NCBI GenBank assembly: GCA_015058845.1
Contig: SVBO01000003.1
Span: 1 to 64,000, forward strand
Direction of reading: 5' to 3'
Origin: Erysipelotrichaceae bacterium
GTDB taxonomy: Bacteria; Bacillota_I; Bacilli_A; Erysipelotrichales; Erysipelotrichaceae
Length of the DNA: 64,000 nucleotides
The position numbers were made by a program, and so were the translations under genes. Of the stretch, positions 1 through 64,000 are shown piece after piece. Under the pieces are notes generated by a model that saw nothing but the letters and a program-made list of their open reading frames with translations, did no database searches and was not told the origin of the DNA. Each line of letters starts with the position of its first letter. Within the stretch, counting starts at the first letter, position 1.

Positions 1-21
1 AGTATTAGAAAGGAAGTAACT

Positions 22-1392
22 ATGAAACTAGGTGTCAATACACAGGCCATGGGAAGTGAGAGAGTATCTACCTTACTTGCTAAACTAGCCATCCCTGCTG
101 TGATCGCACAAGTGATCAACTTATTATATAACATCGTAGACCGTATCTATATTGGTCATATTCCAGAGATAGGCTCTTCTGCCTTAACAGGAGTAGGTCT
201 CTTCATGCCGATCCTAATGCTCATCAATGCCTTTGCTATGTTAGCAGGAGCAGGAGGAGCCCCAAGAGCAGCTATTGCCATGGGGAAGGGAGAGCATGAG
301 TCTGCTGAGAAGATCATGGGAAATTGTTTTTCCTTATTACTGATCTTAGCAGTGATCTTAACAGTCGTATTCTATATCACAGCTTCAGATCTACTTATGC
401 TATTTGGAGCCAGTGAAGTAACACTCCCTTATGCTCTATCCTATGCTAGGATCTATATCCTAGGAAGTATCTTCGTATTGATCGTACTAGGTATGAACCC
501 ATTCATCACTACCCAAGGCTTTGCTAAGATCAGTATGCTTACGACAGTCATTGGAGCTATCATCAACATCGTCCTAGATCCGATCTTCATCTTCTTACTA
601 GATATGGGAGTAGAAGGAGCGGCACTAGCTACTATCCTCTCTCAAGCAGTAGGAGCTATCTGGATCCTACGTTTTATTACAAGTGATAAGAGTCATTTAA
701 AGTTAAAGAAAGAAAACCTAGTATTAGATATCAAAGTTGTTTTACCTATATTAGCACTAGGGATCTCTACCTTCGTAATGCTTTCTACAGAAAGTATCTT
801 ATCTATTAGCTTTACAGCAAGTTTACAAGAATATGGAGGAGATATAGCAGTAGGTGCTATGACGATCATTACGAGTGTGTCTTCATTAGTCACTATGCCT
901 TTACAAGGGATCTGTCAGGGAGGACAACCGATCATTAGTTATAACTTCGGTGCTCATAATAATGATAGAGTTAAAGAAGCCTTCTTTACTATGTTTAAAG
1001 TATGTTCTATATTCAGTATCTTAACTTGGGCTACGTTATTACTTCTACCACAACTATTTGCTAGTCTATTTACAAGTGATGTAGCATTGATCGAATACAC
1101 TGTATGGACACTAAGGATCTATATGGCAGGGATCTTTGCACTAGGACTACAGATCTGTTGTCAACAAAGTTTCATGGCACTAGGACAAGCTAAAGTAAGC
1201 TTATTTCTAGCAGTATTACGTAAAGTAATATTACTGATCCCATTGATCTTTATTCTCCCTCGATTCATGAGTAATCAGGTATTCGCAGTCTTCTTAGCAG
1301 AACCGATCAGTGATCTAACGGCTGCCCTTGTTACAACGATTACTTTCTTTGCAAGATTCAATACGATCTTACAGAAAGGTCCCTCTAGATAA
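22..1392 (+). CDS. MATE family efflux transporter (first copy)
   Basis: Multidrug/toxin extrusion carrier of the MATE (MOP superfamily) type, expected to export cationic compounds across the cytoplasmic membrane using a Na+ or H+ gradient. The 456-residue protein is almost entirely hydrophobic with about 12 membrane segments in two similar halves. Family signatures are visible: an early PAVIAQVINLLYNIVDRIYIG-like segment, GAGGAPRAAIAMG after TM2, and GICQGGQPIISYNFGA opening the second half. Length is normal for the family. The ATG has AAGGAAG about 6 nt upstream. Its own promoter lies outside the window or in the first 20 bases. A bidirectional terminator separates it from the convergent coaX. 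Substrate cannot be told from sequence. Confidence 0.9.
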   Translation: MKLGVNTQAMGSERVSTLLAKLAIPAVIAQVINLLYNIVDRIYIGHIPEIGSSALTGVGLFMPILMLINAFAMLAGAGGAPRAAIAMGKGEHESAEKIMGNCFSLLLILAVILTVVFYITASDLLMLFGASEVTLPYALSYARIYILGSIFVLIVLGMNPFITTQGFAKISMLTTVIGAIINIVLDPIFIFLLDMGVEGAALATILSQAVGAIWILRFITSDKSHLKLKKENLVLDIKVVLPILALGISTFVMLSTESILSISFTASLQEYGGDIAVGAMTIITSVSSLVTMPLQGICQGGQPIISYNFGAHNNDRVKEAFFTMFKVCSIFSILTWATLLLLPQLFASLFTSDVALIEYTVWTLRIYMAGIFALGLQICCQQSFMALGQAKVSLFLAVLRKVILLIPLIFILPRFMSNQVFAVFLAEPISDLTAALVTTITFFARFNTILQKGPSR

Positions 1393-1396
1393 CTAA

Positions 1397-1430
1397 AATA
1401 GGTCAGTTCAAACGAACTGGCCTATTCTTT
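1397..1430. terminator. Bidirectional terminator between MATE gene and coaX
   Basis: A 13-bp stem, AATAGGTCAGTTC against GAACTGGCCTATT, with a 4-nt loop and one G-U pair. It has T-rich flanks on both strands and lies exactly between two convergent genes. Confidence 0.85.
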
Positions 1431-2187
1431 ACTTATTCCTATCGTAAATGATCTTCATACCCTTAAACATCAGATCCTCATCATACACATCGATCAACGT
1501 ACTCTCTTGAGAGATCAATCTACCAAGACCTCCCGTAGCGATCACTCTAATGTCATCTCTCTTTAATTCACTCATGAATCTCTTAATAATATATTCCACA
1601 GAACCAATATATCCATACATCACACCAGAGCGCATACAATCGATCGTATTCGTAGCTAGTATAGTATTAGGTACTTGTAACTCTATATCTGGTAACAATG
1701 AAGCCATAGAACTAAGAGCCTTAGCAGAGATCTCTAGTCCTGGTAGTATTACACAATATAGAAAGGCTCCTTCCTCATCAATATACTGGAAAGTAGTAGC
1801 CGTACCAAAGTCTGCGACTAAGATATTCCCTCCATACAAAGCATATCCAGCGGTGGCATCCGCGATCAGATCAGCTCCCACTTCCTCAGCACGATCCGTC
1901 TTGATCAAGATCCCACTGTCTAATGTATGATCGATCAGCATCACTTCTTTATTCAGATACTTATAAATAGCCTCTTTAAATGGAACAAGCACCTCAGGAA
2001 CTACACAAGAAACGATCACATCTTCGATCTTTATTTCTCCTATAAACTTCTTAAGAATACTTTCAAACTCCTCACAACTACGCTCTACCTTCGTTACGAA
2101 ACGAAATGTATCTTCTATCTCTCCACTCTCATTCATAAGACTTAGTACAATATTCGTATTTCCAATATCTACTGCCAGTAGTTTCAT
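1429..2187 (-). CDS. coaX: Type III pantothenate kinase
   Basis: Catalyses the first step of coenzyme A synthesis, phosphorylation of pantothenate to 4'-phosphopantothenate, in the cytoplasm. The 252-residue length is typical of CoaX. The N-terminal phosphate-binding motif AVDIGNTN (residues 5-12), the central GADLIADA motif (about residue 104) and the C-terminal ATGGLG motif are all present, placing it in the ASKHA-fold type III class rather than the CoaA or PanK-II classes. ATG start is preceded by GAAGG. It lies 5 nt downstream of the coaBC-like gene on the same strand, so the two are probably cotranscribed, linking consecutive CoA steps. Confidence 0.93.
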   Translation of the reverse strand: MKLLAVDIGNTNIVLSLMNESGEIEDTFRFVTKVERSCEEFESILKKFIGEIKIEDVIVSCVVPEVLVPFKEAIYKYLNKEVMLIDHTLDSGILIKTDRAEEVGADLIADATAGYALYGGNILVADFGTATTFQYIDEEGAFLYCVILPGLEISAKALSSMASLLPDIELQVPNTILATNTIDCMRSGVMYGYIGSVEYIIKRFMSELKRDDIRVIATGGLGRLISQESTLIDVYDEDLMFKGMKIIYDRNK

Positions 2188-2192
2188 ATTCT

Positions 2193-3248: not shown

Positions 3249-3291
3249 CCCACTCACTCCTTATAATTCCCATTGACTCTATTAAGTCTGC

Positions 3292-3318
3292 TTGATTATT
3301 CCCTAATGTCATTATAAA
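3292..3318. promoter_or_regulatory. Divergent promoter region, coaBC-like / dnaE
   Basis: The same AT-rich stretch offers a minus-strand TATAAT (reverse complement of 3311-3316), well placed for the coaBC-like gene. It also offers a plus-strand TTGATT (3292-3297) and TATAAA (3313-3318) pair with a short 15-nt spacer for dnaE. The overlapping -10 boxes are suggestive only. Confidence 0.35.
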
Positions 3319-3389
3319 ATAGAAGTAACTAAAAGAAAAGAAATTTACCTTTAGAAAATAAGATACACAACAGGAAAGGAGGAATAGCT

Positions 3390-6437: not shown

Positions 6438-6444
6438 GAGAAAT

Positions 6445-6555: not shown

Positions 6556-7716
6556 ATGATTATTACTCAAAGAAGAGAAAAGTGTCTGAATGAATTTAAG
6601 AAAACGGGGTTAGATGGTCTATTGTTTGCATCATGTGCTAATTTCCAATATCTAACTGAAACAAAGAGTTATATGTGGCAAAGATTCTGTTTTAATTTAG
6701 ATGTGGAAGTATCTGGGGCTCGTATCATTCCTGAGGCATTAGTATTTATGGATCAAGAGGGTAGAACTACGATTCTTACTACACCTGCTCTTAAGGATCA
6801 TTTTGATACGAATAAGAATGATGTAGTCGTGAGTTATATGGATCAGTTTGAAGATGAGCTAAAGCATATTGTTAAGGGAAAGAAGATCGGTATTGGTAGA
6901 GATTGTGATCAATGGATCATGAATACTTTGAAGATGGTAGATCCAGAGATCGAAACAGTGAATATCGAGACTGTCTTTGATGATATTCGTCGTATTAAGG
7001 ATGCGTATGAGATCGATCAGATGACTAAGTTAGCGAAGTTTACAGATGATGCTGTGATGTATGTTTGTAAGCATTTAAAGAAGGGGATGACGATGTTTGA
7101 GGCTGAAAGGATGATCGTGGATTATGGTCTTCTTAATGGCATCCAAGATCTATCCTTTGCTCCTACATGTGGATTCAAGACTAGAAATACAGAGAATGCA
7201 CAGGCTATTGAACCATTTGAAGATGAGAGAGTGTTAGAAGAGGGTACTATGATCGCTTTTGATATTGGATATATGGATCAAGGCTATTGTTCTGACTGGG
7301 GTAGAACTGTGTATTGTGGTAAGGCTCCTGAGTTAGTGAAGAAGGGGTATGAGGCATTACAAGCGGCTCAGTGTTATATGGTAGAGAGAATAAAGCCAGG
7401 GGTAACTCGTTTTGGGGATCTATATGGCTATATTTGTGATAAGGCTGAAGAGCTTGGTTATTATGAATATCTACGTTTTAAGAGAGAAGAACTGGGTGGT
7501 AATGGACATCATATTGGGGTAGAAGTCCATGAAGTACCTTTCTTGAAGTATACTTCAGATCTAATTCTACAATCTGGTATGATCTTCTGTAGTGAACCTA
7601 AGATGTTCTTTAAGAATGAGGGGTATATGCGTGTAGAGGATATGATCTTGGTCACTGAGGATGGTGCTAAGTTCTTAACTAATTTTCCACGTGATCTATT
7701 CGAGATCGACTTTTAG
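6556..7716 (+). CDS. M24 family metallopeptidase (Xaa-Pro peptidase-like)
   Basis: Predicted cytoplasmic aminopeptidase of the pita-bread (creatinase/prolidase) fold, 386 residues. The N-terminal creatinase-like domain (1-150) is followed by the catalytic domain. The five expected metal ligands can be read: Asp in AFDIGY and Asp in CSDWGRT, His in GHHIGVEVHE, Glu in CSEPKMF and Glu in MRVEDM. A second His in VHEVP fits the substrate site. Start ATG has AAGGAGG 8 nt upstream and a consensus promoter ahead. It is monocistronic between terminators. Substrate is probably X-Pro dipeptides, but creatinase-like specificities share this fold. Confidence 0.85.
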   Translation: MIITQRREKCLNEFKKTGLDGLLFASCANFQYLTETKSYMWQRFCFNLDVEVSGARIIPEALVFMDQEGRTTILTTPALKDHFDTNKNDVVVSYMDQFEDELKHIVKGKKIGIGRDCDQWIMNTLKMVDPEIETVNIETVFDDIRRIKDAYEIDQMTKLAKFTDDAVMYVCKHLKKGMTMFEAERMIVDYGLLNGIQDLSFAPTCGFKTRNTENAQAIEPFEDERVLEEGTMIAFDIGYMDQGYCSDWGRTVYCGKAPELVKKGYEALQAAQCYMVERIKPGVTRFGDLYGYICDKAEELGYYEYLRFKREELGGNGHHIGVEVHEVPFLKYTSDLILQSGMIFCSEPKMFFKNEGYMRVEDMILVTEDGAKFLTNFPRDLFEIDF

Positions 7717-7793
7717 GTCAGTAGGTATAAATATAGTATAAACTATGTCATCTGATAACTTTTAAAGTATGTATAGAAAGATGAGGTGAGAAT

Positions 7794-8507
7794 ATGGCAA
7801 TGTGGGATCCATGGCGCGGTTGTAAGAAATATAGTGATGGATGTCTACATTGCTATATTCATAAAGGAGATAGTAAGCGTGGTGTGGATACTAGTAACAT
7901 AGTACAGACCAAAGATTTCAAGAAACCCATAGAGCGTTTAAAGAATGGTAACTACAAGATGAGATCAGGTCTAGTATATACTTGCTTTTCTACAGACTTT
8001 CTGATCGAGGAAGCTGATCCATGGCGTAATGAATGTTGGGAAATGATTAAGGAAAGGCAGGATTGCACATTTCTATTTCTGACAAAGCGGATCGAACGTT
8101 TCATGAAATGTATTCCCACTGATTGGGGGCAAGGATATGAGAATGTAGTAATCTGCTGTACCATCGAGGATCAAAAGAATGCCGATAAAAGACTATCTAT
8201 ATTTCACTCATTGCCTATCAAACACAAATGTATTACCGCTCAACCATTGCTTGAGAATGTGGATATAGAGAAATATCTAGATGATATTGAATTAGTGGTA
8301 GTTGGAGGAGAATCAGATCATTACGCTAGACCTCTTGATTATGATTGGGTCTTACATATTCGTGAGCAATGTATTAAGAAGAATGTTAGCTTTGAGTTTA
8401 GACAATGTGGAACACATTTCATTAAAGAGGGTAAAGTATATACATTGAAAACAAAGGATCTTTGTAGCCAAGCTAGGAAGGCTGATATTAATTTTAAAAC
8501 AAAATAA
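7794..8507 (+). CDS. DUF5131 family protein (phage Gp37/Gp68-like)
   Basis: The 237-residue protein opens with WDPWRGCKKYSDGCLHCY and contains FLTKRIERF and VVGGESDHYARPLDYDWV, the recognisable signature of DUF5131, a family common in phages and mobile DNA. Three clustered cysteines (C-x6-C-x2-C) resemble an iron-sulfur site, and relatives have been suggested to be radical-SAM-like; the function is unknown. It stands alone with its own SD (GAGGTGAG) and a long terminator behind. Codon use differs slightly from the neighbours, with fewer GATC sites and more AGG and TTT, which could mean acquisition by transfer. Confidence 0.75.
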   Translation: MAMWDPWRGCKKYSDGCLHCYIHKGDSKRGVDTSNIVQTKDFKKPIERLKNGNYKMRSGLVYTCFSTDFLIEEADPWRNECWEMIKERQDCTFLFLTKRIERFMKCIPTDWGQGYENVVICCTIEDQKNADKRLSIFHSLPIKHKCITAQPLLENVDIEKYLDDIELVVVGGESDHYARPLDYDWVLHIREQCIKKNVSFEFRQCGTHFIKEGKVYTLKTKDLCSQARKADINFKTK

Positions 8508-8556
8508 TAAAGGATCTGTATTGTTAAGGTAGAGCCTAACAACATAGATCCTTTTT
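8508..8556. terminator. Bidirectional terminator after DUF5131 gene
   Basis: Long hairpin with outer stem AAGGATCT/AGATCCTT and inner stem TTGTTA/TAACAA. It has T runs on both sides and lies between convergent genes. Confidence 0.8.
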
Positions 8557-8568
8557 ATACATCAACTA

Positions 8569-9252
8569 TTATTTTCCACTATCTTTAGAAGATCCCTTGA
8601 TCTTATTTCCTTGATCTTCCTTATAGATCTCTAATGCTTCAAACTCTTGCTTACGGATCAGTAATGGCTTAACAAAGAACACTTCTACACTACCATAGAT
8701 AGGAGTATTTCCTGCCTTGTTATACTCATAGAAATCCTTAGCATATTCTACAGCATCCTCATAATTCTTAGTGAACCCATTCGCATGTTGTAAAGACACG
8801 AAAGTGACTACTAGACCCGCATTCTCTTCCCCACGAACATGAGCAAACTTGATCTCATCCTTGATCAAATAAGCTGGTAGATACACCGCTTGATATAGAT
8901 CAGTATCATAGAACATATGAGATACAGTCTCATTTACATAATTTAAATAATGCTTAAGATGACCCTTCTCACGCATATTCGCGATCTCATCTTTCGAGAT
9001 CTTACCACTTAAGAACTTCAACATCACTTGATCATCTACAGTAGCAAACGTAGCAATAAATTCAATATACTTCTCAATATCCTCATCTACAAACTGTTGC
9101 ATCAAGAATAATAACAAAGAACCTCCATGAACACTAAGATCTTTCTGATATAACTCACGACATACAGCTAAGATATCTTTCATACTATAAGCACAATCTT
9201 TATTCGCATATAATTGACGGATCAATCTAATTAAAATCTCTTGAGAACTCAT
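8569..9252 (-). CDS. Protein of unknown function, 227 aa
   Basis: I do not recognise this family. The protein is soluble, with no signal peptide or membrane segment. It appears alpha-helical in its first 130 residues and mixed alpha/beta afterwards. It ends in a charged, Lys/Ser-rich tail (NKIKGSSKDSGK). Normal codon use with many GATC sites argues for a real resident gene. The ATG at 9252 is chosen over a GTG at 9273 because GGGAG lies 11 nt ahead of the ATG, within what would be the longer form. It is divergent from ruvAB and convergent with the DUF5131 gene, so context gives no functional hint. Confidence 0.7.
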   Translation of the reverse strand: MSSQEILIRLIRQLYANKDCAYSMKDILAVCRELYQKDLSVHGGSLLLFLMQQFVDEDIEKYIEFIATFATVDDQVMLKFLSGKISKDEIANMREKGHLKHYLNYVNETVSHMFYDTDLYQAVYLPAYLIKDEIKFAHVRGEENAGLVVTFVSLQHANGFTKNYEDAVEYAKDFYEYNKAGNTPIYGSVEVFFVKPLLIRKQEFEALEIYKEDQGNKIKGSSKDSGK

Positions 9253-9329
9253 TTTCAAAACAACTCCCTTCACTCTTTCTCTATTTTACCAATTTTTTGA
9301 ACTTTATGCCATATAAACAATTAAAAACA

Positions 9330-9338
9330 TGCTATAAT
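9330..9338 (+). promoter_or_regulatory. Extended -10 promoter of ruvAB
   Basis: TGCTATAAT (extended -10) about 45 nt before the ruvA start. No good -35 box is seen, as is usual for extended -10 promoters. Confidence 0.65.
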
Positions 9339-9382
9339 ACATAAGATAGAGCAAAATATTAGTGAAGTAGGTGAATAAAAAT

Positions 9383-9958
9383 ATGTATGCATTTATTTCT
9401 GGTAAAGTATATAGTGTGAAAAGTGATGAAGTGATCGTGGATAATCATGGGATCGGATATCGTATCCATATGAGTGATACACGCAAGATAAAGCGTGATA
9501 GTGAGGTATTCTTATATATCTATGAACAGATCAGTGAGGATGCGCATACTTTATATGGTTTCTTATCTAATGAGGAATATGATCTATTTACCCAATTGAT
9601 CAAGGTAAAGGGAGTAGGGTGTAAGAGCGCTATTACAGCAATGTCTATGGCAGCAGCTAGTGATATCATTGGCGCGATCGAGAAGTCTGATGTAGCCTTC
9701 ATGAAGAGATTACCTGGAATTGGAGCTAAGACTGCTTCTCAGATCATTCTAGATCTAAAGGGTAAGTTAGTGCATAGTGATGAGGTGAGTAAGAATACTT
9801 CTCCTCTATTAACAGAAGTAGAACAAGCATTGAAGTCACTGGGATATAAGAATAGTGAAATCAATCCGATCTTGAAACAATTAGAGATCAAGGATAAGAC
9901 TGTGGATCAATTGATCAAACAGGCATTAAGTTTAATGTTGAAGGCGAAGGGAGGATAA
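9383..9958 (+). CDS. ruvA: Holliday junction DNA helicase subunit RuvA
   Basis: RuvA tetramers bind Holliday junctions and load the RuvB motor for branch migration. The 191-residue protein shows the three expected domains: N-terminal OB fold ([10 protein letters not shown] start, residues 1-62), the HhH pair (KGVGCKSAI and [19 protein letters not shown], residues 70-135), and a C-terminal three-helix domain that contacts RuvB (145-191). ATG at 9383 matches the family start MYA(F/Y)I; the upstream in-frame GTG at 9371 overlaps the SD-like AGGTG. It is the first gene of ruvAB, with ruvB 4 nt later. Confidence 0.95.
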
Positions 9959-9962
9959 TACT

Positions 9963-10967
9963 TTGAAAGAGCGTATTATGAGTAATGAAGAGTTAGTATG
10001 TGATGAGGAAGAGACTCTACGTCCCTCTAGTCTAAAAGATTACGTAGGACAAAGTGCGATCAAAGAGAACTTATCGATCTTCATTCAAGCTGCTAGAGGT
10101 AGAGATGAAGCACTAGATCATGTATTGCTATATGGCCCTCCAGGATTAGGTAAGACTACGTTATCCTATATTATTGCCAATGAGATGCATGGGAATATCA
10201 AAACAACTAGTGGACCTAGTATTGAAAGAAGTGGAGATCTAGCTTCGATCCTATCTTCCTTAGAAGCAGGAGATGTATTATTCATTGATGAGATCCATCG
10301 ATTACCTAAAATGGTAGAGGAAGTATTATATCCAGCAATGGAAGACTATTGTATCGATGTAGTAGTCGGGAAAGATGCTTCTACAAGATCTATTCGCTTA
10401 GACTTACCTCCATTCACATTAGTAGGAGCTACCACAAGAGCAGGAGATCTAAGTGCTCCCCTACGTGATCGATTCGGGATCATTAATAAGTTAGAATACT
10501 ATACCAATGAGGAACTAGGACAGATCATTACTAGATCGGCTAGAGTATTAGGCAGTAAGATCGAACCAGAAGCTGTATTAGAGTTAGCTAAAAGAAGTCG
10601 TGGTACACCACGTATTGCTAATAGATTACTAAGAAGAGTCCGTGACTTTGCCCAAGTACTCAATGATGGAAACATTACCCTAGAGATCACACAGAAGTCA
10701 TTAGATAAGTTAAAGGTAGATGCTCTAGGTCTAGATGATGTAGACCATAAGTATCTAAGAGGTATTATTGAGAGATATAATGGAGGTCCAGTAGGCGTAG
10801 AATCTATTGCAGCTAGTATTGGAGAAGAGCCAATGACTTTAGAGGATGTATATGAGCCTTATCTATTACAGATCGGTTTCATTAATCGTACTCCTAGAGG
10901 TAGAGTAGTAACACCTAAGGCATATGAGCATCTAGGTATATCTTATCAAAATAGCTTGTTTGAATAA
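9963..10967 (+). CDS. ruvB: Holliday junction branch-migration ATPase RuvB
   Basis: AAA+ hexameric motor of the RuvAB complex, 334 residues. Walker [10 protein letters not shown] (about 58-66), Walker [10 protein letters not shown] (about 105-113), sensor 1 GATTRAG, and the arginine-finger segment APLRDRFG are intact, followed by the winged-helix C-terminus (FINRTPRGR). The start is a TTG: GGGAGG lies 8 nt before it, and the resulting N-terminus MKERIMS aligns with Bacillus RuvB MDERLVS. The next ATG (9978) would cut off this conserved segment. In Bacillus queA, tgt and yajC follow ruvB; none is here. Confidence 0.96.
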
Positions 10968-10990
10968 GAGAGGCATGACCTCTCTTTTCT
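10966..10990. terminator. Bidirectional terminator after ruvB
   Basis: An 8-bp stem AAGAGAGG/CCTCTCTT, loop CATGA, T run following, between convergent genes. Confidence 0.85.
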
Positions 10991-11343
10991 TATCTCCTCA
11001 TTGCCACTCTAGTACATATCCCAAACCCTACTATTCTAGCTAATACAAGATATAGATCACTCATATTCAAACTATTCCCCATCAAGAACATAACAAGCAC
11101 TATCGCTACATACACCCCGATCACAGGAAGAGCACATAGCAAAGCCTTCTTATATACGAACCTACCCAACAAAACACCAGCCCCACTCCAAAGGATCACA
11201 CTTAAAACATTCGCAATCATTTCATAAGTATCGAAACTTAGGATAGAATAAAACATAAGAAGTGCAAAGAAGATAGAGACCATGCAGTACGTAGTACATA
11301 AGAATACTAAGGTATATACATATCTAGAAATTTGATGATTCAT
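10990..11343 (-). CDS. Small four-TM membrane protein, TIGR04086/YrzE-like
   Basis: The 117-residue protein has four hydrophobic helices with short loops, as in the TIGR04086 (Bacillus YrzE) family of unknown function. The position supports this: in Bacillus yrzE lies between the ruvAB-queA-tgt-yajC block and spoVB, and here it sits between ruvB and a spoVB-like gene. ATG at 11343 is chosen because GAGGTGAT precedes it by 7 nt. Divergent from the yetF-like gene, with the two starts 61 nt apart. Sequence similarity alone is weak, so synteny carries much of the call. Confidence 0.6.
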   Translation of the reverse strand: MNHQISRYVYTLVFLCTTYCMVSIFFALLMFYSILSFDTYEMIANVLSVILWSGAGVLLGRFVYKKALLCALPVIGVYVAIVLVMFLMGNSLNMSDLYLVLARIVGFGICTRVAMRR

Positions 11344-11404
11344 CACTATCACCTCATATTCACTATATGTGAACACTATACTTTCTAGTACGAAAGGAGC
11401 TAAA

Positions 11405-12151
11405 ATGGAATATCTAAACTTGATCTTAAGAAGTTTCTTCTTTTATTTCCTGATCATTTTATACTTACGATTAATGGGGAAAAGAGAAGTAGGAGAATTA
11501 TCTGTATTCGATCTTGTATTATATTTTCTAATGACTGAACTATTAGCGATCTCTATTTCTTCAGTGGATGAGAGTATCTGGAAGACGATCTTTCCCGTGA
11601 CGACACTTGCTTTCTTACAAATAGCACTTTCTTGGTTCTTGCTAAAGAAAAAGAAGTATCGAGATATCATAGAAGGAAAACCAGCTTTGTTGATCTGTAA
11701 TGGCAAGATCATGCAAGAGGAGATGAAGAGGCAGAGGTATACGATCGATGATCTATTGTATCAGATCCGAGATAAGGATGTGGGGAGTGTTTCTGAGGTA
11801 GAGTTTGCGATCTTAGAGAATAGTGGGGTATTAAGTGTGTTGAAGAAAGGGCAGACTCCTTTACTATTCCCTTTTCCTTTGATTAGTGATGGAGAGATCC
11901 AAGTAGATATGTTATATCGATGTGGGTTGAATCAGAAGTGGTTATTAGAGAAGTTACGCAAGTTAGGATACAATGATCCTAAGGATATCTTCATATGTCT
12001 ATGGGAGAAGGGTGGTCTACATATTACTCTTAAGGAAGGCGTGATGAAGGCGCAAGGCATGGAGAAATGTCGTCAGAAGATATCCTGCCAACAAGCTAAT
12101 AAACAACGCATACTCTCTAAAAATAGGGATCAGAAGGATCAAGCAAAGTAA
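11405..12151 (+). CDS. DUF421 (YetF-like) membrane protein
   Basis: A 248-residue protein with three N-terminal membrane helices containing LRLMGKREVGELSVFDLV, the hallmark of the YetF/DUF421 family. A cytoplasmic alpha/beta domain follows with GKPALLICNGKI and a YTIDDLLYQIRDKDV segment. Function is not settled; relatives are linked to envelope or spore properties in Bacillus. ATG at 11405 has AAAGGAG 5 nt ahead. The recognisable domain ends near residue 216 (GGLHITLK). The last ~30 residues are charged, look like read-through, and overlap the tail of the convergent spoVB-like gene by 135 bp. Confidence 0.85.
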   Translation: MEYLNLILRSFFFYFLIILYLRLMGKREVGELSVFDLVLYFLMTELLAISISSVDESIWKTIFPVTTLAFLQIALSWFLLKKKKYRDIIEGKPALLICNGKIMQEEMKRQRYTIDDLLYQIRDKDVGSVSEVEFAILENSGVLSVLKKGQTPLLFPFPLISDGEIQVDMLYRCGLNQKWLLEKLRKLGYNDPKDIFICLWEKGGLHITLKEGVMKAQGMEKCRQKISCQQANKQRILSKNRDQKDQAK

Positions 12152-13321
12152 TCGTAAGATACTGCCTATAAGAGAATCTATGAATGATAGATGCGTCTGA
12201 TCCAGGGCTGTTAAACAAACAGATAATACAGATTGAATAGAACCAATAGCAAAAGGAAACACCATCCATCGCACAGCATTCAAAGAAGTATTCGATAAAG
12301 TCTTATGATATAACAATACACATAATTCTTGTGGAAACATATAGATCGTAAGAGCTACACAACTAGCTATACTGATACATAGTATACATACATGCTTTAG
12401 AAGAATTTTAGCTTGGTGGATATTCCCATTGGTATAATATCTAGTAAAGGTAGGTAATAAATACGTAGAAAGGGAAAAGGAAAGAAAAGCAGAAAGAGAT
12501 ATTAAAGGTAATATGTATCCATGTAATTCCCCATAACTCTCTTGTAATATAGGTAATATCTCTACTCCGATCCATGCTATGATCAAAGGTTCTAAGAACA
12601 TGGTTAGAGTACCTGTGAAACGAGCAGCACTAAGTGGTAGGGCAATGGAGAGTACATATTTTAGAGCTTGTTTGGTGGTATGGGTGAATAAGACTGTGAT
12701 CTTCTTGGAAGAGAAGGGAAGGAATATAGTAAGGAATAAGATAGTACCCACTTCTCCAGCACTGATCGATAACATGGAGATCACTGCTAAGTCGATACTA
12801 TCTTGTATTGGGTATATACTTAATATGATCATTAGAAATAAGATCCTAGCGATCTCCTCGATCACACTAGAAGCACTCGAAGCAATATGTCTAGCTTTCC
12901 CATTATAGTATCCCTTCAACATACCGCTTACAGTCACTAGTGGAAGAAGAGGAATGATCGCATATAATACCTCTTTCATATCAGGGGAAGAGAATAAGAG
13001 AGAAGAGAGTAAAGGAATACATAAGAATAGTAATACTACTAATAATAGATTATTGATAGTAGCTATTAGAATAGCAGCTATGATAGGTCTTCTTCGAGCA
13101 ATACTTTGATCTGCTACGATCCTAGAGATCGTACTAGGTAGACCCAATTGCGCAATAGTTATAAAGAATAACATCGTAGGAACTGCTAGAGAATATAAAG
13201 TCATAGCGTCTTTTGTAAGCAGGCGTGCTAATAAGATTTTGATGAACATAGATAATATCTTGGCAATAAATGAAAGAGATAATAAGATAAATGCCATCAT
13301 TAGTAATCTTTTTTTTCGCAT
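12017..13321 (-). CDS. SpoVB/MVF-type lipid or polysaccharide flippase
   Basis: Polytopic membrane protein of the MOP superfamily, 434 residues with about 12-14 helices. It has the family features of SpoVB/YtgP proteins: GLPSTISRIVADQ near residue 60 and GMLKGYYNGKARHIASSASSVIEEI near 135. Members flip lipid-linked sugars or peptidoglycan precursors. It is slightly short compared with the usual ~500 residues. Placement next to a TIGR04086-like gene and upstream of comN-secDF mirrors Bacillus spoVB. Its final helix (LISLLAGYLLTTFLHAL) lies in the 135-bp overlap with the yetF-like gene, which argues that this reading frame is the genuine one there. Sporulation itself is not implied. Confidence 0.8.
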   Translation of the reverse strand: MRKKRLLMMAFILLSLSFIAKILSMFIKILLARLLTKDAMTLYSLAVPTMLFFITIAQLGLPSTISRIVADQSIARRRPIIAAILIATINNLLLVVLLFLCIPLLSSLLFSSPDMKEVLYAIIPLLPLVTVSGMLKGYYNGKARHIASSASSVIEEIARILFLMIILSIYPIQDSIDLAVISMLSISAGEVGTILFLTIFLPFSSKKITVLFTHTTKQALKYVLSIALPLSAARFTGTLTMFLEPLIIAWIGVEILPILQESYGELHGYILPLISLSAFLSFSLSTYLLPTFTRYYTNGNIHQAKILLKHVCILCISIASCVALTIYMFPQELCVLLYHKTLSNTSLNAVRWMVFPFAIGSIQSVLSVCLTALDQTHLSFIDSLIGSILRLLCLILLIPIFREYALFISLLAGYLLTTFLHALRLHHAFLKSNM

Positions 13322-15993: not shown

Positions 15994-15999
15994 TCAAAC

Positions 16000-16025
16000 A
16001 AGGACAGTTCATACTGTCCTTTTCT
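16000..16025 (+). terminator. Terminator after secDF
   Basis: A 9-bp stem AAGGACAGT/ACTGTCCTT with loop TCAT and trailing T-rich tract. Confidence 0.85.
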
Positions 16026-16063
16026 ATTCGTTCCATGATATACTTATGAAGTAGGTGAGAAAT

Positions 16064-31476: not shown

Positions 31477-34431
31477 ATGTTTCTGAAGAGGATAGAGGTA
31501 AGTGGATTTAAATCATTTGCCGATAAGACTACGATCACATTTGACCAAGATATTACTGGTATCGTGGGTCCTAATGGTTGTGGTAAATCAAATATTTCAG
31601 ATGCTATTCGTTGGGTACTAGGTGAACAATCACCTAAATCACTTCGTGGTAGTAATATGTCTGATGTTATCTTCAATGGTTCTACTAAGCGTAAAGCATT
31701 GCATAAAGCAGAGGTAACATTAGTATTCGATAATAGTTCCCATATCCTGCCAATTGATTATGAGGAAGTAGAGATCACTCGTATCTTATATCGTAGTGGA
31801 CAAAGTGATTATCTATTGAATAAAGAAAGTTGTCGTTTAAAGGATATTACAAATCTGATCATGGATACAGGTCTTGGAAAAGACTCATTATCTATCATCT
31901 CACAAGGGAATATAACAAGTTTCGCAGAGGCTAAACCAGAAGAACGTCGTGCGATCTTTGAAGAAGCAGCAGGTGTCGCTAAGTATAAGAAACGTAAGAG
32001 TGAGTCTATTAGTAAATTAGATCGAACACAAGATAATCTATCTCGTCTATCAGATATCATTCTAGAGTTAGAGAAGCGTGTCAATCCATTGCGTAAACAA
32101 GCTGAGAAAGCTAAGAAATACATTGGGATCAAGCAACAATTAGAAGAAGTAGAAGTAGCTGTAATCGTTGATGAGATCACAACAGTACAACAACAAATGG
32201 AGAATATGCATAAGACATTAGCAGACTTTGAAGCAGATAAACTTAAGAATGAAGCTAATATCAATGTGAATGATGCCAAGATCTTAGAAATGCGTCAAGA
32301 GATCACGAAGCTAGATCATGAAGTAACTCAATTACAAGAGAAATATGCGAAGATCATTGATACGATCAAGGGCTTAGAGAACCGTAAGTTTGAATTAGAT
32401 GAGAAACGTCGTCATTGGTTAGAGTCTCAAGTAGAGATCTCTCCAGAGAAGATCACTCAAATGCAAGCTATGTGTGAAGAAGCTAAGTTAGAGTATCTAG
32501 ATCGTAAGAAACGTTATGAAGCATTGCTACAAGAGATCGAAGATTCAAGAGCTACATTAGCTAAGAAAGAAGAAATGAAGCGTCATGGAGAGAATGAACT
32601 GAGTAATGCATTAGGTAAATTAAACAGAGCTAAGAATCGTAGAGAAGTCGTTCAATCTCTGATCAATCAACCTCTACATGGACAAGCAGGTGTACGCTCT
32701 ATCATGGAGGCTCGTAAAGGGCTACATGGTATTGAGGGGGTTATCGTAGATCTAGTAAAACCTGAAGAAGGATATGAGAGTGCTATTTCTACGGCTCTTG
32801 GGGGAGCTTTATATAACGTAGTAACTAGAGATAGTGATTGTGCTAGATATGCAATCGAATTCTTGAAGAGAAATGAAAGTGGTAGAGCTACTTTCTTACC
32901 ATTAACAGTATTACAAAGAAGAACATTTAATAAAGAACATGAGATCGCTGCTAATACTGTCAAAGGATTCTTAGGAGTGGCTAGTAGCCATGCTAATATC
33001 GATCCAAAGTATCAGATCGTAGTAGATTCATTACTTGGTCAAGTGTTAGTATGTGATACACTACAAGCAGCTAATGAAGTAAGTAGCTTATTGAAGTATG
33101 GATATAAAGTAGTAACTCTAGATGGCGATGTAGTCAATCGTGGTGGTTCTATGACGGGTGGTAAAGTCCGCAATCAAGAAACACCCATGACACTAAGAAG
33201 AGAAGCAGAGGTATTAGAAAGAGATATCGATAGCTTCACGATCAATGTGAATACATGGCAAGAACAGATCAGTATTCTAAGTAGAGACTTAGTACTTCTC
33301 AATGATCAAGTCATGAGTCGTAGATTGACACTTGCTCAATTAGAACCATTAGTCGCATTGAAGAAAGAAAAGTATGAGAAGCTAAGTGATGAATTAAAGG
33401 CACTTGGTCAGAAGGAAAAAGAAGAACAAACAGTACAAAGTGATGATACATATCTGATCACTCGTTTAAACGAAGCATACCAAACTAGAGATACACTAGA
33501 GATGGAGATGAAGAGTAAACGAGAACGTCGTGTGGTCATGAGTCAAGAGTGTGATCGTATGGATGATGAGATCAGAACTGTTAGAAGAGCTTTATCTGGG
33601 GCGAATGCTCAAATGAAGGATATTGAGATCTCTATGGCTCGTTTAGAGGGTAAGTTAGACAATGGTCTAAATCGTTTAAATAGTGAGTATAAGATGACGT
33701 TTGAGTATGCGCAAGTGCATTGTAAGAAAGAGATCAATATCTTAGAAGCACGTACAGAGGTAGAACTATTACGTCAGCAAATTGCTTCTCTTGGCTATAT
33801 CAACATGGAAGCTCCAGCTGAGTATGAGGAAGTAAATACTCGTTATCAAGAGTATTGTAAGCAAAGAGGAGATCTAGAAGAGGCTCGTAATAAGATCTTA
33901 AGTGCTATTAAAGAGATGGATGAAGTGATGGCGAATGATTTCGCAACTAGTTTCCATGCAATCAATGCGGAACTAGAGGGTGTGTTTACTTCTTTATTTG
34001 GAGGAGGACATGCTCGTTTAGTGATGGTTGATCCAAACAATATCTTAGAAACTGGTATTGATATCGACGTACAACCTCCAGGAAAAGCTGTACAGAATAT
34101 GCGTTTATTCTCTGGGGGAGAAAAGAGTTTGATCGCTCTGGCTGTATTATTTGCGATCATGAAGTGTCGTCGTATTCCACTATGTATTCTAGATGAATGT
34201 GAATCAGCGCTAGATCCAGCCAATGTAGAGCGTTTCGCAAGGTATTTAAAGCAATTCAGTGGACAAACACAGTTCATTGTTGTAACACATCGTCCTGGTA
34301 CTATGGAACAATGTGATATGTTGTATGGAGTTACTATGCAACAAAAGGGTATTACCCAAATGATTCAAGTCAAATTAGCAGAAGCAGTTGCTTTTGGTAA
34401 GAAGGAGGAACAAGATGGGGTTCTGGGATAA
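31477..34431 (+). CDS. smc: Chromosome segregation SMC ATPase
   Basis: Dimeric SMC motor that compacts and aligns chromosomes with ScpA and ScpB (not in this window). N-terminal head with Walker A GPNGCGKSN (residues 32-40), first coiled coil (about 170-395), hinge (about 397-560, including GSMTGGKV), second coiled coil, and C-terminal head with signature FSGGEKS (about 878) and Walker B CILDECESALD (Asp906, Glu907). At 984 residues it is about 200 shorter than Bacillus SMC, the loss being shared by both coiled-coil arms. SD GGAAGGGG upstream; its last 17 nt overlap ftsY. The usual upstream rnc is not here. Confidence 0.96.
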   Translation: MFLKRIEVSGFKSFADKTTITFDQDITGIVGPNGCGKSNISDAIRWVLGEQSPKSLRGSNMSDVIFNGSTKRKALHKAEVTLVFDNSSHILPIDYEEVEITRILYRSGQSDYLLNKESCRLKDITNLIMDTGLGKDSLSIISQGNITSFAEAKPEERRAIFEEAAGVAKYKKRKSESISKLDRTQDNLSRLSDIILELEKRVNPLRKQAEKAKKYIGIKQQLEEVEVAVIVDEITTVQQQMENMHKTLADFEADKLKNEANINVNDAKILEMRQEITKLDHEVTQLQEKYAKIIDTIKGLENRKFELDEKRRHWLESQVEISPEKITQMQAMCEEAKLEYLDRKKRYEALLQEIEDSRATLAKKEEMKRHGENELSNALGKLNRAKNRREVVQSLINQPLHGQAGVRSIMEARKGLHGIEGVIVDLVKPEEGYESAISTALGGALYNVVTRDSDCARYAIEFLKRNESGRATFLPLTVLQRRTFNKEHEIAANTVKGFLGVASSHANIDPKYQIVVDSLLGQVLVCDTLQAANEVSSLLKYGYKVVTLDGDVVNRGGSMTGGKVRNQETPMTLRREAEVLERDIDSFTINVNTWQEQISILSRDLVLLNDQVMSRRLTLAQLEPLVALKKEKYEKLSDELKALGQKEKEEQTVQSDDTYLITRLNEAYQTRDTLEMEMKSKRERRVVMSQECDRMDDEIRTVRRALSGANAQMKDIEISMARLEGKLDNGLNRLNSEYKMTFEYAQVHCKKEINILEARTEVELLRQQIASLGYINMEAPAEYEEVNTRYQEYCKQRGDLEEARNKILSAIKEMDEVMANDFATSFHAINAELEGVFTSLFGGGHARLVMVDPNNILETGIDIDVQPPGKAVQNMRLFSGGEKSLIALAVLFAIMKCRRIPLCILDECESALDPANVERFARYLKQFSGQTQFIVVTHRPGTMEQCDMLYGVTMQQKGITQMIQVKLAEAVAFGKKEEQDGVLG

Positions 34432-35362
34432 TCTAAAGAAAGGGATCTTTAAGGAACAAAAGGATGTATATCTAGAGGGACTTGGAAGATCTAGAAATAG
34501 TTTCGCAAGTAAGTTACGTGGATTGTCATTGTCTTTTAAGGGATTAGATGAGGATTTCTTAGAGGAGTTGATGGTGATCTTACTAGAAGCGGATGTTGGG
34601 ATCCATACTGCGAATAAGATCTTAGCACAGTTCGAGAAGAATTCTGGGAAATATGGGAAAGATTTCAATTCTCAGATCGAATGTTTGATCGAAGTCATGG
34701 CTAAGATGTATGGAGAGAATGAGACATTAACTCCTACTTATCCGAAAGTCATCTTATTAGTAGGTGTCAATGGAAATGGTAAGACTACTACTGCTGCTAA
34801 GTTAGCGAATAACTTCAAGAAAGAAGGCAAGAGTTTAGTATTAGGGGCTGCCGATACCTTTAGAGCAGGAGCTATGGAACAGTTACAAATGTGGGCAGAT
34901 CGCTTAGATGTACCATGTGTTAAGGGAAAAGAGAATGGAGATCCTAGTAGTGTTCTAGTAGATGCTTGTCGTTATATGAAAGAACATGAGATCGAAGTAT
35001 TGATCGGAGATACAGCGGGTAGATTACAGAATAAAGTCAATCTTATGAATGAGTTGAATAAGATGAAGAGAGTGGTATCTCGTGAGATCGAGGGGGCTCC
35101 CCATGATGTCTTATTAGTACTAGATGCTACTACTGGTCAAAATGGTATCGAGCAAGCGAGAGTATTCTTAGAAAGTGCTGCTGTTAATGGGATCGTTCTA
35201 ACTAAGATGGATGGTACTGCTAAGGGTGGTGTCGTATTGGCGATCAAGGATCAGTTAGGGATTCCTGTGAAGTATATTGGCTTTGGTGAGTCTATGGAAG
35301 ACTTACGTCCATTTGATATCAATGCTTACTTAGTAGGTCTGTTTGAAGGAGTTCTACAATGA
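34415..35362 (+). CDS. ftsY: Signal recognition particle receptor FtsY
   Basis: SRP-receptor GTPase that hands ribosome-nascent chains from SRP to the translocon. The 315-residue protein has an N domain and NG GTPase with G1 GVNGNGKTTT (about 118-127), ADTFRAGAMEQL, G3 DTAGRLQN and G4 TKMDGTAKGG. The acidic A domain found in E. coli is absent, as in many Gram-positives. ATG at 34415 has AAGGAGG 6 nt upstream and lies inside the end of smc; the in-frame start at 34388 is rejected for lack of an SD. Confidence 0.96.
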   Translation: MGFWDNLKKGIFKEQKDVYLEGLGRSRNSFASKLRGLSLSFKGLDEDFLEELMVILLEADVGIHTANKILAQFEKNSGKYGKDFNSQIECLIEVMAKMYGENETLTPTYPKVILLVGVNGNGKTTTAAKLANNFKKEGKSLVLGAADTFRAGAMEQLQMWADRLDVPCVKGKENGDPSSVLVDACRYMKEHEIEVLIGDTAGRLQNKVNLMNELNKMKRVVSREIEGAPHDVLLVLDATTGQNGIEQARVFLESAAVNGIVLTKMDGTAKGGVVLAIKDQLGIPVKYIGFGESMEDLRPFDINAYLVGLFEGVLQ

Positions 35363-40876: not shown

Positions 40877-40889
40877 TTTAATGCTTAAA

Positions 40890-40975
40890 TTTTATCAAGA
40901 ATGGGGAAGAGGGTTAGCTCGATGATCCCATGCCAACCTGCTATAGTAAGGTGGTAAAGCTAACAGCGATAAGGA
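40890..40975 (+). promoter_or_regulatory. SAM-clan riboswitch aptamer (S-box-like, no P4) controlling metK
   Basis: S-box landmarks are present: TTTATCAAGA at the 5' end, TGCCAACC and GGTGGTAAAGC further on. Helices I can pair by eye: P1 TTTATC/GATAAG (40891-40896 with 40968-40973), P2a ATGGG/CCCAT (40901-40905 with 40927-40931), a k-turn-like asymmetric loop with GATGA, P2b GAG/CTC, P3 ACCT/AGGT, and a pseudoknot GTTAGC (40913-40918) with GCTAAC (40959-40964). The P4 helix of SAM-I RNAs is missing: the pseudoknot strand runs almost straight into P1. An intrinsic terminator follows. SAM binding should stop metK transcription. Confidence 0.82.
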
Positions 40976-42257: not shown

Positions 42258-43148
42258 ATGAACTTGAAATTCTTAGTAGAAACATATAATCCTCAAGAAG
42301 TACTTGAGGCAATTTCACATAAAGCAGATGGTATTATTGTAAGTATAGAATTCTTTAGTGCTCGTTGTTTACATGCTACTGATTTTGAAGGATTAGTACA
42401 GATGTATAATGTCGCGAAGGAAGTTGGTCTAGAGGTATATATTGATGTAACACGTATGTTTACGGATGAAGAATTACTTCGATTAGAAGGTTTCTTGAAG
42501 CAGTGTCAAGAGTTACAATTAGATGGTATTTATTTCTCAGATATGAGTGTATTTGAGGTATGTAATGAATTAGGTATGGGTAAGAGTACGATCTATCAAC
42601 CTGATACAATGATCGTGAATACATGGGATGCGAAGGTGTTCTTAGAGGATATGAAGAGAGTTGTATTGGCTAAGGAACTGACTCTAGAGGAATGTTGCCA
42701 GATCGGTAGTGATATTCCTGGGTGTGTAGAGATGTTCTTACATGGTAGAGAGTTGATGTCTATTTCTAAGAGAGCGTTAGTGACTAACTATTTTGAAGAG
42801 ATCTCTTATTCTGGTAAGATGGAACCATACTATTATTTAGTAGAAGAGAAGCGTGATGAGAAGATGATCGTGATGGAGAATGAGCAGGGGACTCATTTCT
42901 TTAGTGGTTTCACGTTATGTTCTTTTAAGGAGTTATCTAGTTTGATCTCTTCGCATATTTCTCATGGACGTATTTCTCATATGTTCTTAGAGTTTGATGA
43001 GATGATGGATGCCTTGGATGGATATGTAGCGATCCGTGAGGGTGCGGATGCTTGTGCGATCCATGATAATTTTGTAGAGAAGTACTCTGGTAATAATTAT
43101 CAAAGTGGTTTCTATTATCAGAAGACTAGTGTTAGAAAGGAGTACTAA
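42258..43148 (+). CDS. U32-family protein, TrhP1/YrrN-like
   Basis: A 296-residue protein of the U32 peptidase-like TIM-barrel family. It begins LKFLVETYNPQEVLEAISHKADGIIVSIE, the divergent first member of the two-gene TrhP set (Bacillus yrrN-yrrO) that hydroxylates tRNA U34 to ho5U using prephenate. Similarity is modest and the Cys motif of the larger partner is absent; the gene pair arrangement supports the call. Start is uncertain: ATG at 42258 is close to AAAGGTGG, while the in-frame TTG at 42264 has better spacing. An earlier in-frame GTG at 42174 is impossible because it lies in the metK terminator. The partner gene follows by 1 nt. Confidence 0.7.
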   Translation: MNLKFLVETYNPQEVLEAISHKADGIIVSIEFFSARCLHATDFEGLVQMYNVAKEVGLEVYIDVTRMFTDEELLRLEGFLKQCQELQLDGIYFSDMSVFEVCNELGMGKSTIYQPDTMIVNTWDAKVFLEDMKRVVLAKELTLEECCQIGSDIPGCVEMFLHGRELMSISKRALVTNYFEEISYSGKMEPYYYLVEEKRDEKMIVMENEQGTHFFSGFTLCSFKELSSLISSHISHGRISHMFLEFDEMMDALDGYVAIREGADACAIHDNFVEKYSGNNYQSGFYYQKTSVRKEY

Positions 43149-43149
43149 T

Positions 43150-44349
43150 ATGAAGAAAGATATTGAATTATTAGCTCCTGCTGGGGATCTAGAGAGATTA
43201 AAGTGTGCTGTTCGTTTTGGAGCAGATGCTGTGTATATTGGTGGTAAGAAGTTCTCTTTACGTTCTCGTGCTAGTAACTTTGATCTAGAGGATATTCGCG
43301 AGGGTGTTGAGTTTGCTCATGCGCATGGGTCTCGTGTGCATGTTACTTGTAACATGGTATTACATAATGAAGATTTTGAAGGGGCTAGAGAATATCTAAC
43401 TGCTCTTGGTGAGATCGGAGTAGATGCGATCATTTGTGAGTCTATGGCATTTGCTCGTATTTCTAAGGAAGTGGCTCCTAATATGGAAGTACATCTTAGT
43501 ACACAGTGTTCTACATTGAATCTAAAGAGTATTCAGTACTATCAAAGACATGGGATCGATCGTGTGGTATTAGCAAGAGAAGTAGATCTTAAGCAAATGG
43601 AGTATATCGTTAAGAACTCACCATTACCGATCGAAGTATTTATCCATGGTGCTATGTGTATGGCATATTCTGGTAGATGTATGTTATCGAATCATATGAC
43701 ATTACGTGATGCGAATCGTGGTGGTTGTGCACAGTCTTGTCGATGGAAGTATCATTTACTGAATACTGCGTTAGAGGAAGTGTCTAAAGAGGATTGCTTG
43801 TTCTCTATGAGTTCTAAGGATATGATGGCTGCTAGATATATTCCTTCTTTAATGGAAATGGGAGTAACTAGCTTAAAGATCGAAGGTCGTATGAAGACTG
43901 CTTACTATATCTCATGTGTTGTAAGAGCGTATCGTAAACTGATCGATGCGTATGCCAATGGAGAAGAACTGGATTGGGAGTATTATGTTAAGGAACTTGC
44001 AAAGGCAGAGAACCGTCCTACTTGTATTGGGTTCTATGAAGGTGTTCCTGGTGTGAAGGATCATTTATATGGTGTAAATGGAGCGGGTGTTATTCAAGAC
44101 TTTGTAGCGACTGTGATCGATTATGATACAGACAGAAAAGAAGCTATCATCGAGGTCAAGAATCACTTTGTAGCTGGTACTGTACTAGAAGCCTTTGGGC
44201 CACATTTAGAAAATACAGTATTTACAGTGAATGAGATGTATGATGAGAGTGGTGAATTAGTAGAGATTGCTAATAAGCCAACTCAGATCTTACGTGTTCC
44301 TATTCCTTTTGAAGTAAAGAAATTCGATCTAATTAGAAAGTATCGATAA
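43150..44349 (+). CDS. U32-family tRNA hydroxylation protein, TrhP2/YrrO-like
   Basis: A 399-residue U32 family member. Motifs: ELLAPAGDLERLKCAVRFGADAVYIG split as ELLAPAGD and GADAVYIGG, the family signature EVFIHGAMCMAYSGRCMLS, and RGGCAQSCRW, whose cysteines likely hold an Fe-S cluster, followed by the U32 C-terminal barrel. In Bacillus and E. coli such proteins (TrhP) form 5-hydroxyuridine at tRNA position 34, which TrmR then methylates. The trmR-HAD gene 3 kb upstream makes this pathway complete locally. ATG at 43150 has AAAGGAG 8 nt ahead. Confidence 0.88.
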   Translation: MKKDIELLAPAGDLERLKCAVRFGADAVYIGGKKFSLRSRASNFDLEDIREGVEFAHAHGSRVHVTCNMVLHNEDFEGAREYLTALGEIGVDAIICESMAFARISKEVAPNMEVHLSTQCSTLNLKSIQYYQRHGIDRVVLAREVDLKQMEYIVKNSPLPIEVFIHGAMCMAYSGRCMLSNHMTLRDANRGGCAQSCRWKYHLLNTALEEVSKEDCLFSMSSKDMMAARYIPSLMEMGVTSLKIEGRMKTAYYISCVVRAYRKLIDAYANGEELDWEYYVKELAKAENRPTCIGFYEGVPGVKDHLYGVNGAGVIQDFVATVIDYDTDRKEAIIEVKNHFVAGTVLEAFGPHLENTVFTVNEMYDESGELVEIANKPTQILRVPIPFEVKKFDLIRKYR

Positions 44350-59209: not shown

Positions 59210-59233
59210 CATTCTATAGATATGTTCTATACT
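59206..59233 (+). promoter_or_regulatory. Promoter of arsR-metal ATPase operon
   Basis: Perfect TTGACA (59206-59211), 16-nt spacer and TATACT (59228-59233). The operator begins at the last base of the -10 box. Confidence 0.85.
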
Positions 59234-59258: not shown

Positions 59259-59271
59259 AGGAGATTCTATT

Positions 59272-59592: not shown

Positions 59593-59597
59593 TAATT

Positions 59598-62303: not shown

Positions 62304-62323
62304 TAGAAATATCACTCTTTTTA
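62298..62323 (+). terminator. Terminator overlapping ATPase stop codon
   Basis: An 8-bp stem GAGTGATA/TATCACTC, loop GAAA, five T. The TGA stop lies in the 5' arm. Confidence 0.85.
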
Positions 62324-62334
62324 TGTAAGTTATA

Positions 62335-62363
62335 TTTTACAATCTTATAAACTACGATATAAT
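62335..62363 (+). promoter_or_regulatory. Candidate promoter of second MATE gene
   Basis: TTTTAC, 17-nt spacer, perfect TATAAT (62358-62363), leaving a leader of about 60 nt that is AT-rich without clear structure. Confidence 0.5.
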
Positions 62364-62430
62364 ATAAACTATAAGAATTGTTTTTGTGTGTAGTAAGCAT
62401 GTAAATATATATTTGAAAGAAGGTTGATGT

Positions 62431-63828: not shown

Positions 63829-63829
63829 G

Positions 63830-63857
63830 ACCTCAGTATATACTGAGGTTTCTTGTT
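63830..63857 (+). terminator. Terminator after second MATE gene
   Basis: A 9-bp stem ACCTCAGTA/TACTGAGGT, 2-nt centre, T-rich tail. Confidence 0.82.
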
Positions 63858-63881
63858 TTCAAATGCTTTATGGAGTATAAT
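63853..63881 (+). promoter_or_regulatory. Promoter of the last, partial gene
   Basis: TTGTTT (63853-63858), 17-nt spacer, perfect TATAAT (63876-63881), 24 nt before the start codon; it overlaps the tail of the preceding terminator. Confidence 0.65.
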
Positions 63882-63904
63882 CTGTATAGATAGGAGGAGA
63901 AGAT

Positions 63905-64000
63905 ATGATCGAGAAGATATATGAAACATCTTGTGGAAATATTCATTATTGGATAGATATAGTAGATCTTGAAACAATTACGTTAGTCTTTCTTCCTGGA
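63905..64000 (+). CDS. Alpha/beta hydrolase, N-terminal fragment (runs off the window)
   Basis: The first 32 codons of a gene that continues past the end. SD TAGGAGGAG precedes the ATG by about 5 nt. The sequence SCGNIHYWIDI followed by TLVFLPG matches the first two strands and the oxyanion-hole loop of alpha/beta-fold hydrolases. The nucleophile and family cannot be seen. Confidence 0.6.
   Translation, partial: MIEKIYETSCGNIHYWIDIVDLETITLVFLPG

Follow-up and report, generated by a model that had tools for sequence, protein, structure and literature searches.

Very-short-patch (VSP) repair, known from Dcm/Vsr in Escherichia coli, makes one short word commoner at the expense of its C-to-T neighbours. 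HIP1 of cyanobacteria, GCGATCGC, is another over-represented palindrome; in excerpts of PMC4390886 its central AT is the part that deviates least, it goes with GATC/CGATCG methylases, and the author proposes it as a by-product of repair. According to an excerpt of PMC13250602, Dam-methylated GATC is a mutation hotspot in E. coli, at which the inner A:T to T:A change is raised. Sections of PMC4687349 deal with GATC avoidance by restriction-modification (R-M) and also discuss VSP repair and altered word abundance together.

Here we analysed a window, meaning one whole 64-kb stretch of DNA, from the 1.75 Mb genome of a gut-type bacterium (G000; 64 contigs, 97% complete), together with relatives of this genome. 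GATC is 2 to 4 times commoner than expected in G000 and in some of the relatives. We consider it about evenly balanced whether this is because C.G to T.A change at the outer C/G of GATC is prevented, or afterwards reversed, much more often than at other sites in these genomes. As with Dcm/Vsr VSP repair, GATC is enriched, GATT and AATC are depleted, and C<->T change at the target C is suppressed between the relatives G090 and G118. On the other hand, the word is GATC, and among the ten most biased genomes Vsr (PF03852) was matched in only one (G033) and C5 methylases (PF00145) in three (G000, G033 and G062); since these gene tests fail, we did not file the case as a member of VSP repair. Like HIP1, as far as the excerpts cited describe it, the pattern is a genome-wide over-represented palindrome built on GATC. 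Unlike HIP1, it is indifferent to flanks, with no longer fixed palindrome (16 of 16 flank pairs were biased), its inner AT changes freely (inner T<->C odds ratio, OR, 1.49 in G090-G118), and no methylase of the families searched is common to the GATC-rich genomes. As at the Dam hotspot outlined above, GATC alters local mutation sequence-specifically; unlike there, T to A change at the third base of GATC was 0.015 in G090-G118 against 0.017 in both G025-G095 and G023-G144, and it is the outer C to T change that falls. GATC avoidance of the R-M type treated in those sections was itself seen in relatives: a negative GATC index (the ln OR of GATC:GATT against [CT]ATC:[CT]ATT) accompanies either strong D12 genes or genes of the MutH/Sau3AI type next to C5 methylases. 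The GATC-rich genomes have the opposite sign; in the avoiders the inner bases respond, and transversions weigh as much as transitions. No description of this signature was found in the literature searched, at the level of titles and the starts of abstracts and with subscription journals and preprints outside the scope.

The initial annotation had claimed from counts by eye that GATC is strongly over-represented, and all of its counts were reproduced exactly (Table 1), including those for Ile after bases other than G in 43150-44349 (ATC 5, ATT 11). The density in the window was 13.2 GATC per kb, while base composition predicts 3.34 per kb, and by z GATC ranked first of the 256 tetranucleotides, with an observed/expected ratio of 1.64 under a maximal-order Markov null. 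The ORFs of the window (n = 57) hold 810 GATC, a count that 500 synonymous shuffles never reached (mean 361.8, sd 13.3, maximum 414). A larger sample of G000, made up of the window and 20 other stretches (272 kb, 247 ORFs), had 2906 GATC against 1319 under synonymous shuffles (ratio 2.20). The 20 stretches outside the window had 11.2 GATC per kb and matched the window in their Markov ratio, six of the first stretches having no readable bases in the Markov sample. No other tetranucleotide rises as far, so the claim withstood the refutation that the initial annotation had itself set out; the runner-up by synonymous shuffles in the 272 kb was CTTC (1.45), though several words were strongly avoided in the coding sample, namely CCGG (0.24), TTTT (0.35), CGCG (0.42), AATC (0.46) and AAAA (0.50). 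The ORF at 7794 showed a sub-threshold NCBIfam match to rSAM_mob_pairA (31.9 bits of 355).

Table 1 Coordinates of the features considered in the 64-kb window
Feature	Position	Strand	Remarks
Window-wide GATC excess	1..64000	.	843 sites, 18-40 per 2 kb, every part affected
ORF labelled DUF5131 in the initial annotation (putative name)	7794..8507	+	8 GATC in 714 bp
smc	31477..34431	+	served to locate homologous stretches in relatives and to build the tree
ftsY	34388..35362	+	TIGR00064, 323.9 bits; 15 GATC in 34441-35340
SAM riboswitch	40889..40975	+	RF00162, 51.1 bits; upstream of ORF at 41068
ORF labelled TrhP2-like in the initial annotation (putative name)	43105..44349	+	Ile after G: ATC 8, ATT 1

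The excess is frame-dependent, since the ratios in G000 were 3.31 for the codon phase ..G-ATC, 1.25 for GAT-C and 0.53 for.GA-TC. respectively. Compared with independence, NATN words in G000 showed GATC at 1.64, GATT and AATC both at 0.54, GATA at 1.04 and GATG at 0.95, so that what GATC gains is offset by the deficit in GATT and AATC (sum 10136 against 9932 expected). Ile after G was encoded by ATC 2135 times, by ATT 148 times and by ATA 142 times, and the codon before ATC overwhelmingly ended in G (TTG in 253 of 260 TTR, CAG in 120 of 133, AAG in 287 of 294 and GAG in 327 of 355), while Leu after GAT was CTN in 278 of 300 cases. Of the four purine-ATY states, GATC (2135) far exceeded AATC (182), GATT (148) and AATT (205), and the latter three were lowered to a similar degree when estimated by hand from neighbouring contexts, as should be the case close to mutational equilibrium. 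The C share of NGATYN lay between 0.55 and 0.86 across all flank pairs. The ATA share of Ile was 0.111 after purine and 0.131 after pyrimidine, thus ATA was hardly drained, and Arg CGR:AGR after GAT was unchanged (ln OR -0.14). A preference for GGA before TC or for TCN after xGA was looked for and not found. Asp GAT:GAC before C was ordinary in the GATC-rich genomes, whereas GATC-avoiding relatives showed the inner response. GATC is not quite alone, as Val GTC was favoured over GTT after G (ln OR +1.45 in G000, +1.09 in the other rich genomes and -0.02 in neutral ones), which indicates a second, weaker context effect.

The index was obtained for 69 genomes (65 of the family and 4 of the order), after 7 of 76 with fewer than 8000 readable bases were dropped, and it ranged from +1.56 to -1.26. 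It exceeded 0.55 in ten of them (G018, G000, G118, G069, G090, G011, G158, G070, G033 and G062), and it was -1.26 in G001, the genus sister of G000. On a tree of 61 SMC proteins the ten strong genomes were scattered, requiring 7 changes, a number as low as which was reached in 11 of 500 shuffles; one cluster of strong genomes comprised G018, G090, G118, G158 and G069. Extreme avoidance was seen in the Mucispirillum MAG stretch L011, with zero GATC in 12.9 kb, and in those of Mucispirillum L009 and L015, with 0.1 per kb.

For codon readouts, we compared G000 with a rich group (G018, G118, G090, G069, G011 and G158), a neutral group (n = 11) and two groups of GATC avoiders, lowD12 (n = 6, carrying D12 genes) and lowOther (n = 10). 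At the outer transition, Ile ATC:ATT after G versus pyrimidine, the ln OR was +2.87, +1.76, +0.11, -1.69 and -0.89 in this order, an effect that is partly by construction because the groups were hand-picked from the ranking by GATC index; the inner and transversion comparisons are not affected by this choice. The outer transversion, ATC:ATA, gave +1.62, +0.26, +0.42, -1.55 and -1.04, and the inner contrast, that of Asp GAT:GAC before C after subtraction of its value before A/G, gave -0.19, -0.27, +0.02, -0.65 and -0.81. At the 5′ outer base before ATC, the transversion effect in G000 was +2.25 for G:T and +1.88 for G:C (neutral +0.61 and +0.39). The rich genomes thus respond only at the outer bases and mainly by transitions, with G000 responding at its 5′ outer base also by transversions; we say 'mainly', and not purely transition-specific, because of this component at four-fold sites before ATC. 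The avoiders respond at inner and outer bases, with transitions about equal to transversions, as selection should, and restriction is the likely cause; their His:Tyr after GAT was also lowered (-1.01 and -0.80, against +0.36, se 0.19, in G000). An amino-acid imprint was present in the six rich genomes in phase.GA-TC. (AGA:AAA +1.38) and was near nil in G000. The initial annotation had listed release from a past GATC restriction among its possible causes; such a release should stop at neutral, whereas G000, at its ln OR of 2.87, stands about 17-fold up and the neutral relatives remain at 0.11.

Divergence between relatives was examined mainly in G090 and G118, two species of genus g18 that are both GATC-rich and share 80.5% nucleotide identity over 20 kb; each C of NATC was counted at aligned positions, and the p-values treat each C as independent. 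At GATC there were 7 C<->T changes, 39 transversions and 408 kept, compared with 49, 21 and 259 at CATC and TATC together. C<->T at GATC was therefore about 11-fold rarer (OR 0.09, p 8e-13), a result that rests on this one strongly biased pair and its 20 kb, while neither transversion at the same C (OR 1.18) nor the inner transition given above was suppressed. After a shared G, Ile codons in this pair were ATC/ATC in 100 cases, ATC/ATT in 1 and ATC/ATA in 4, as compared to 46, 17 and 2 after a shared pyrimidine. Two pairs of G018 within the same genus gave CC:CT ratios of 58:4 after G versus 20:7 after pyrimidine (p 0.016) and of 36:0 versus 14:3 (p 0.03), whereas a neutral pair gave 24:14 versus 23:24 (p 0.27). 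In G023-G144, with a weaker excess, the OR was 0.32 for C<->T (p 2.5e-4), 1.31 for transversion and 0.85 for the inner change, and in the low-excess pairs G025-G095 and G097-G124 C<->T showed no suppression (1.14 and 1.24). Among 35 testable upstream trinucleotides in G090-G118, GAT_ was the lowest (OR 0.07), followed by TCG_ (0.16); in G023-G144 it was not among the five lowest of 21 upstream contexts. Contexts followed by AG had very few C<->T changes too, which we take as avoidance of CAG to TAG stops.

Suppressed C<->T at the outer position with normal transversions and inner transitions thus characterises G090 and G118, and the codon choice of G000 shows a similar equilibrium pattern. Several other explanations have to be weighed against this. 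If GATC sites were selected for, as a methylation signal, a target of a binding protein or a repair nick site, any GATC-creating change would be favoured, which agrees with an excess that is genome-wide, palindromic and flank-independent, and with the fact that transversions contribute to some extent at the 5′ outer base in G000. However, such selection, as well as the GATC methylase or binding protein suggested by the initial annotation, should act on the inner A/T, and the inner synonymous bases are unresponsive in GATC-rich genomes while responsive in avoiders; neither GGA before TC nor TCN after xGA is preferred, and in G090-G118 GATC undergoes transversions and inner transitions without suppression. 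We regard it as very unlikely and rejected it as the main cause. The same was done for Dam-type methylation, as a profile search gave no D12/Dam-type match (PF02086) in G000, and strong D12 genes (E <1e-45), detected in 12 of 145 family genomes, came with a negative index in all 7 that have one (-0.34 to -1.25); among the ten most biased genomes, G070 had a near-full D12 match, and those in G069, G158 and G062 were weak and partial. A translational codon-pair preference for NNG-ATC and GAT-CTN, also rejected as the main cause, would fit the phase ..G-ATC having the largest effect and the almost missing amino-acid imprint in G000, and would be expected to be strongest in highly expressed genes. 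Instead, the ribosomal-protein operon (stretch L054, at which all 7 proteins tested were S10, L2, S3, L14, L6, SecY and RpoA) was among the weakest, its bias being nearly lost, with a GATC share among purine-ATY of 0.38 (69/180); the median per gene was 0.87 across the 149 genes that have 8 or more of these sites. The bias also extends to intergenic DNA of G000 (C share of GATY 0.65 versus 0.30-0.36 for other NATY), AATC and GATT are lost symmetrically, and ATC/ATA changes are not suppressed like ATC/ATT, so the bias depends on the type of mutation; this preference is in our judgement highly improbable. The intergenic bias falls short of the synonymous one (ln OR in the strict set +1.13, neutral +0.31), and for the other rich genomes the strict intergenic set, with 5 sites in 2.0 kb, showed no bias (+0.15, se 0.44). 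For G000, a simple mutation model would predict both a stronger strict intergenic bias and a stronger amino-acid imprint. The transversion effect at the 5′ outer base of G000, the depletion in phase.GA-TC., the Val GTC preference and the rank of GAT_ in G023-G144 likewise speak against prevention or reversal of C.G to T.A change. Of the causes listed by the initial annotation, neighbour-dependent mutation is the one supported, through the divergence test, while its codon-pair variant and the remaining causes are not.

Classical VSP repair, with a GATm5C methylase and Vsr present now or lost recently, predicts the very compositional pattern observed; both gene types are matched in G033, and G000 has four C5-methylase matches. 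On the other hand, G018, G118, G090, G069, G011, G158 and G070 have no match to either profile (PF00145, PF03852), no Vsr was matched in G000, and the three scored C5-methylase ORFs of G000 had GATC shares of 0, 0 and 0.07 (the fourth is a contig-end fragment) and, being almost without the bias, are therefore recent arrivals. It was rejected as the main cause, and we give it very little probability. In the whole family, C5 methylases were matched in 56 and Vsr in 24 of 145 genomes. Low GATC shares (0 to 0.29) were also found in the genes of an R-M island (L064, 7550-16160) and at the end of contig C7 (L053), which are thus recent arrivals and not the cause. Within this island, on contig C34 of G000, tandem C5 methylases at 7550-13164 lie with an AAA_5 protein of 719 aa and another protein of 413 aa, both matching PADLOC type II REase models; by its gene content this reads as a two-methylase R-M system almost without GATC bias, perhaps LlaJI-like. 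Adjoining the R-M genes, at 14571-16160 on the minus strand, a gene with a GATC share of 0 encodes a 529-aa protein that matches PADLOC PDC-S25 (E 4e-118), with weaker ThsA/SIR2-type matches. Passive protection, by which the C of GATC is modified (e.g. N4-methylated) or bound and deaminates less with no repair enzyme involved, predicts the strongly lowered loss of C to T per C that was seen. G018 and G090, however, have no match to the methylase profiles PF01555, PF00145 and PF02086, PF01555 being matched in 117 of 145 family genomes, and in G023-G144 none of 8 ATT after a shared G was conserved (after pyrimidine there were 23 ATT/ATT and 31 ATC/ATT pairs), bare counts that hint at active reversal; we hold passive protection to be unlikely. 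Single gene absences are weak evidence throughout, because MAGs can lose R-M islands (completeness 100% for G018, 88% for G090 and 85% for G118). Searches with PF02086, PF00145, PF03852, PF01555, PF00730, PF04480, PF02976 and PF03167 revealed no family common to the biased genomes yet missing from others. Among the 30 genomes searched for them, HhH-GPD (PF00730) and UDG (PF03167) were matched in all, DUF559 (PF04480) in two, namely G018 (weak, inside a 1546-aa frame) and G109, and MutH/Sau3AI-like genes (PF02976) in four, with none in the ten most biased. In G061, G122 and G031, all of negative GATC index, the MutH/Sau3AI-like gene adjoins a C5 methylase, and judging from these neighbours the pair is probably an R-M system of the Sau3AI type.

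Returning to prevention or reversal of C.G to T.A change, composition suggests that the same process acts in G000 as in G090 and G118. By this account, the outer C, and owing to the symmetry of the word also the outer G, would be kept from such change or restored after it, and synonymous sites passing through GATT, AATC or AATT would end as GATC and stay there. The process would correct T.G (or U.G) mismatches to C.G in a sequence-specific manner. It may work like VSP repair, because a T.G-to-C.G correction restricted to GAT(T.G) would produce just this pattern, and it would operate without known Vsr/C5-methylase genes in most carriers. More specifically, and only tentatively since we find it rather doubtful, an undescribed methylation-independent enzyme unrelated to Vsr may recognise T.G/U.G in GAT(T.G) and restore C.G, may have rewritten synonymous sites to GATC genome-wide, and may have arisen or spread several times in one family of Erysipelotrichales-like bacteria.

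A word that dominates a genome is usually read as adaptive, through methylation or restriction. The codon and divergence tests separate selection from mutation here and single out a particular class of mutation at a single base of one palindrome. The GATC-avoiding relatives serve as internal controls, and the three-way test of outer transition, outer transversion and inner transition is applicable to any over-represented palindrome, including HIP1. If an enzyme is behind the pattern, it would correct mismatches sequence-specifically without belonging to the known Vsr/C5-methylase pair, and it would show a repair activity setting codon choice across the genome.
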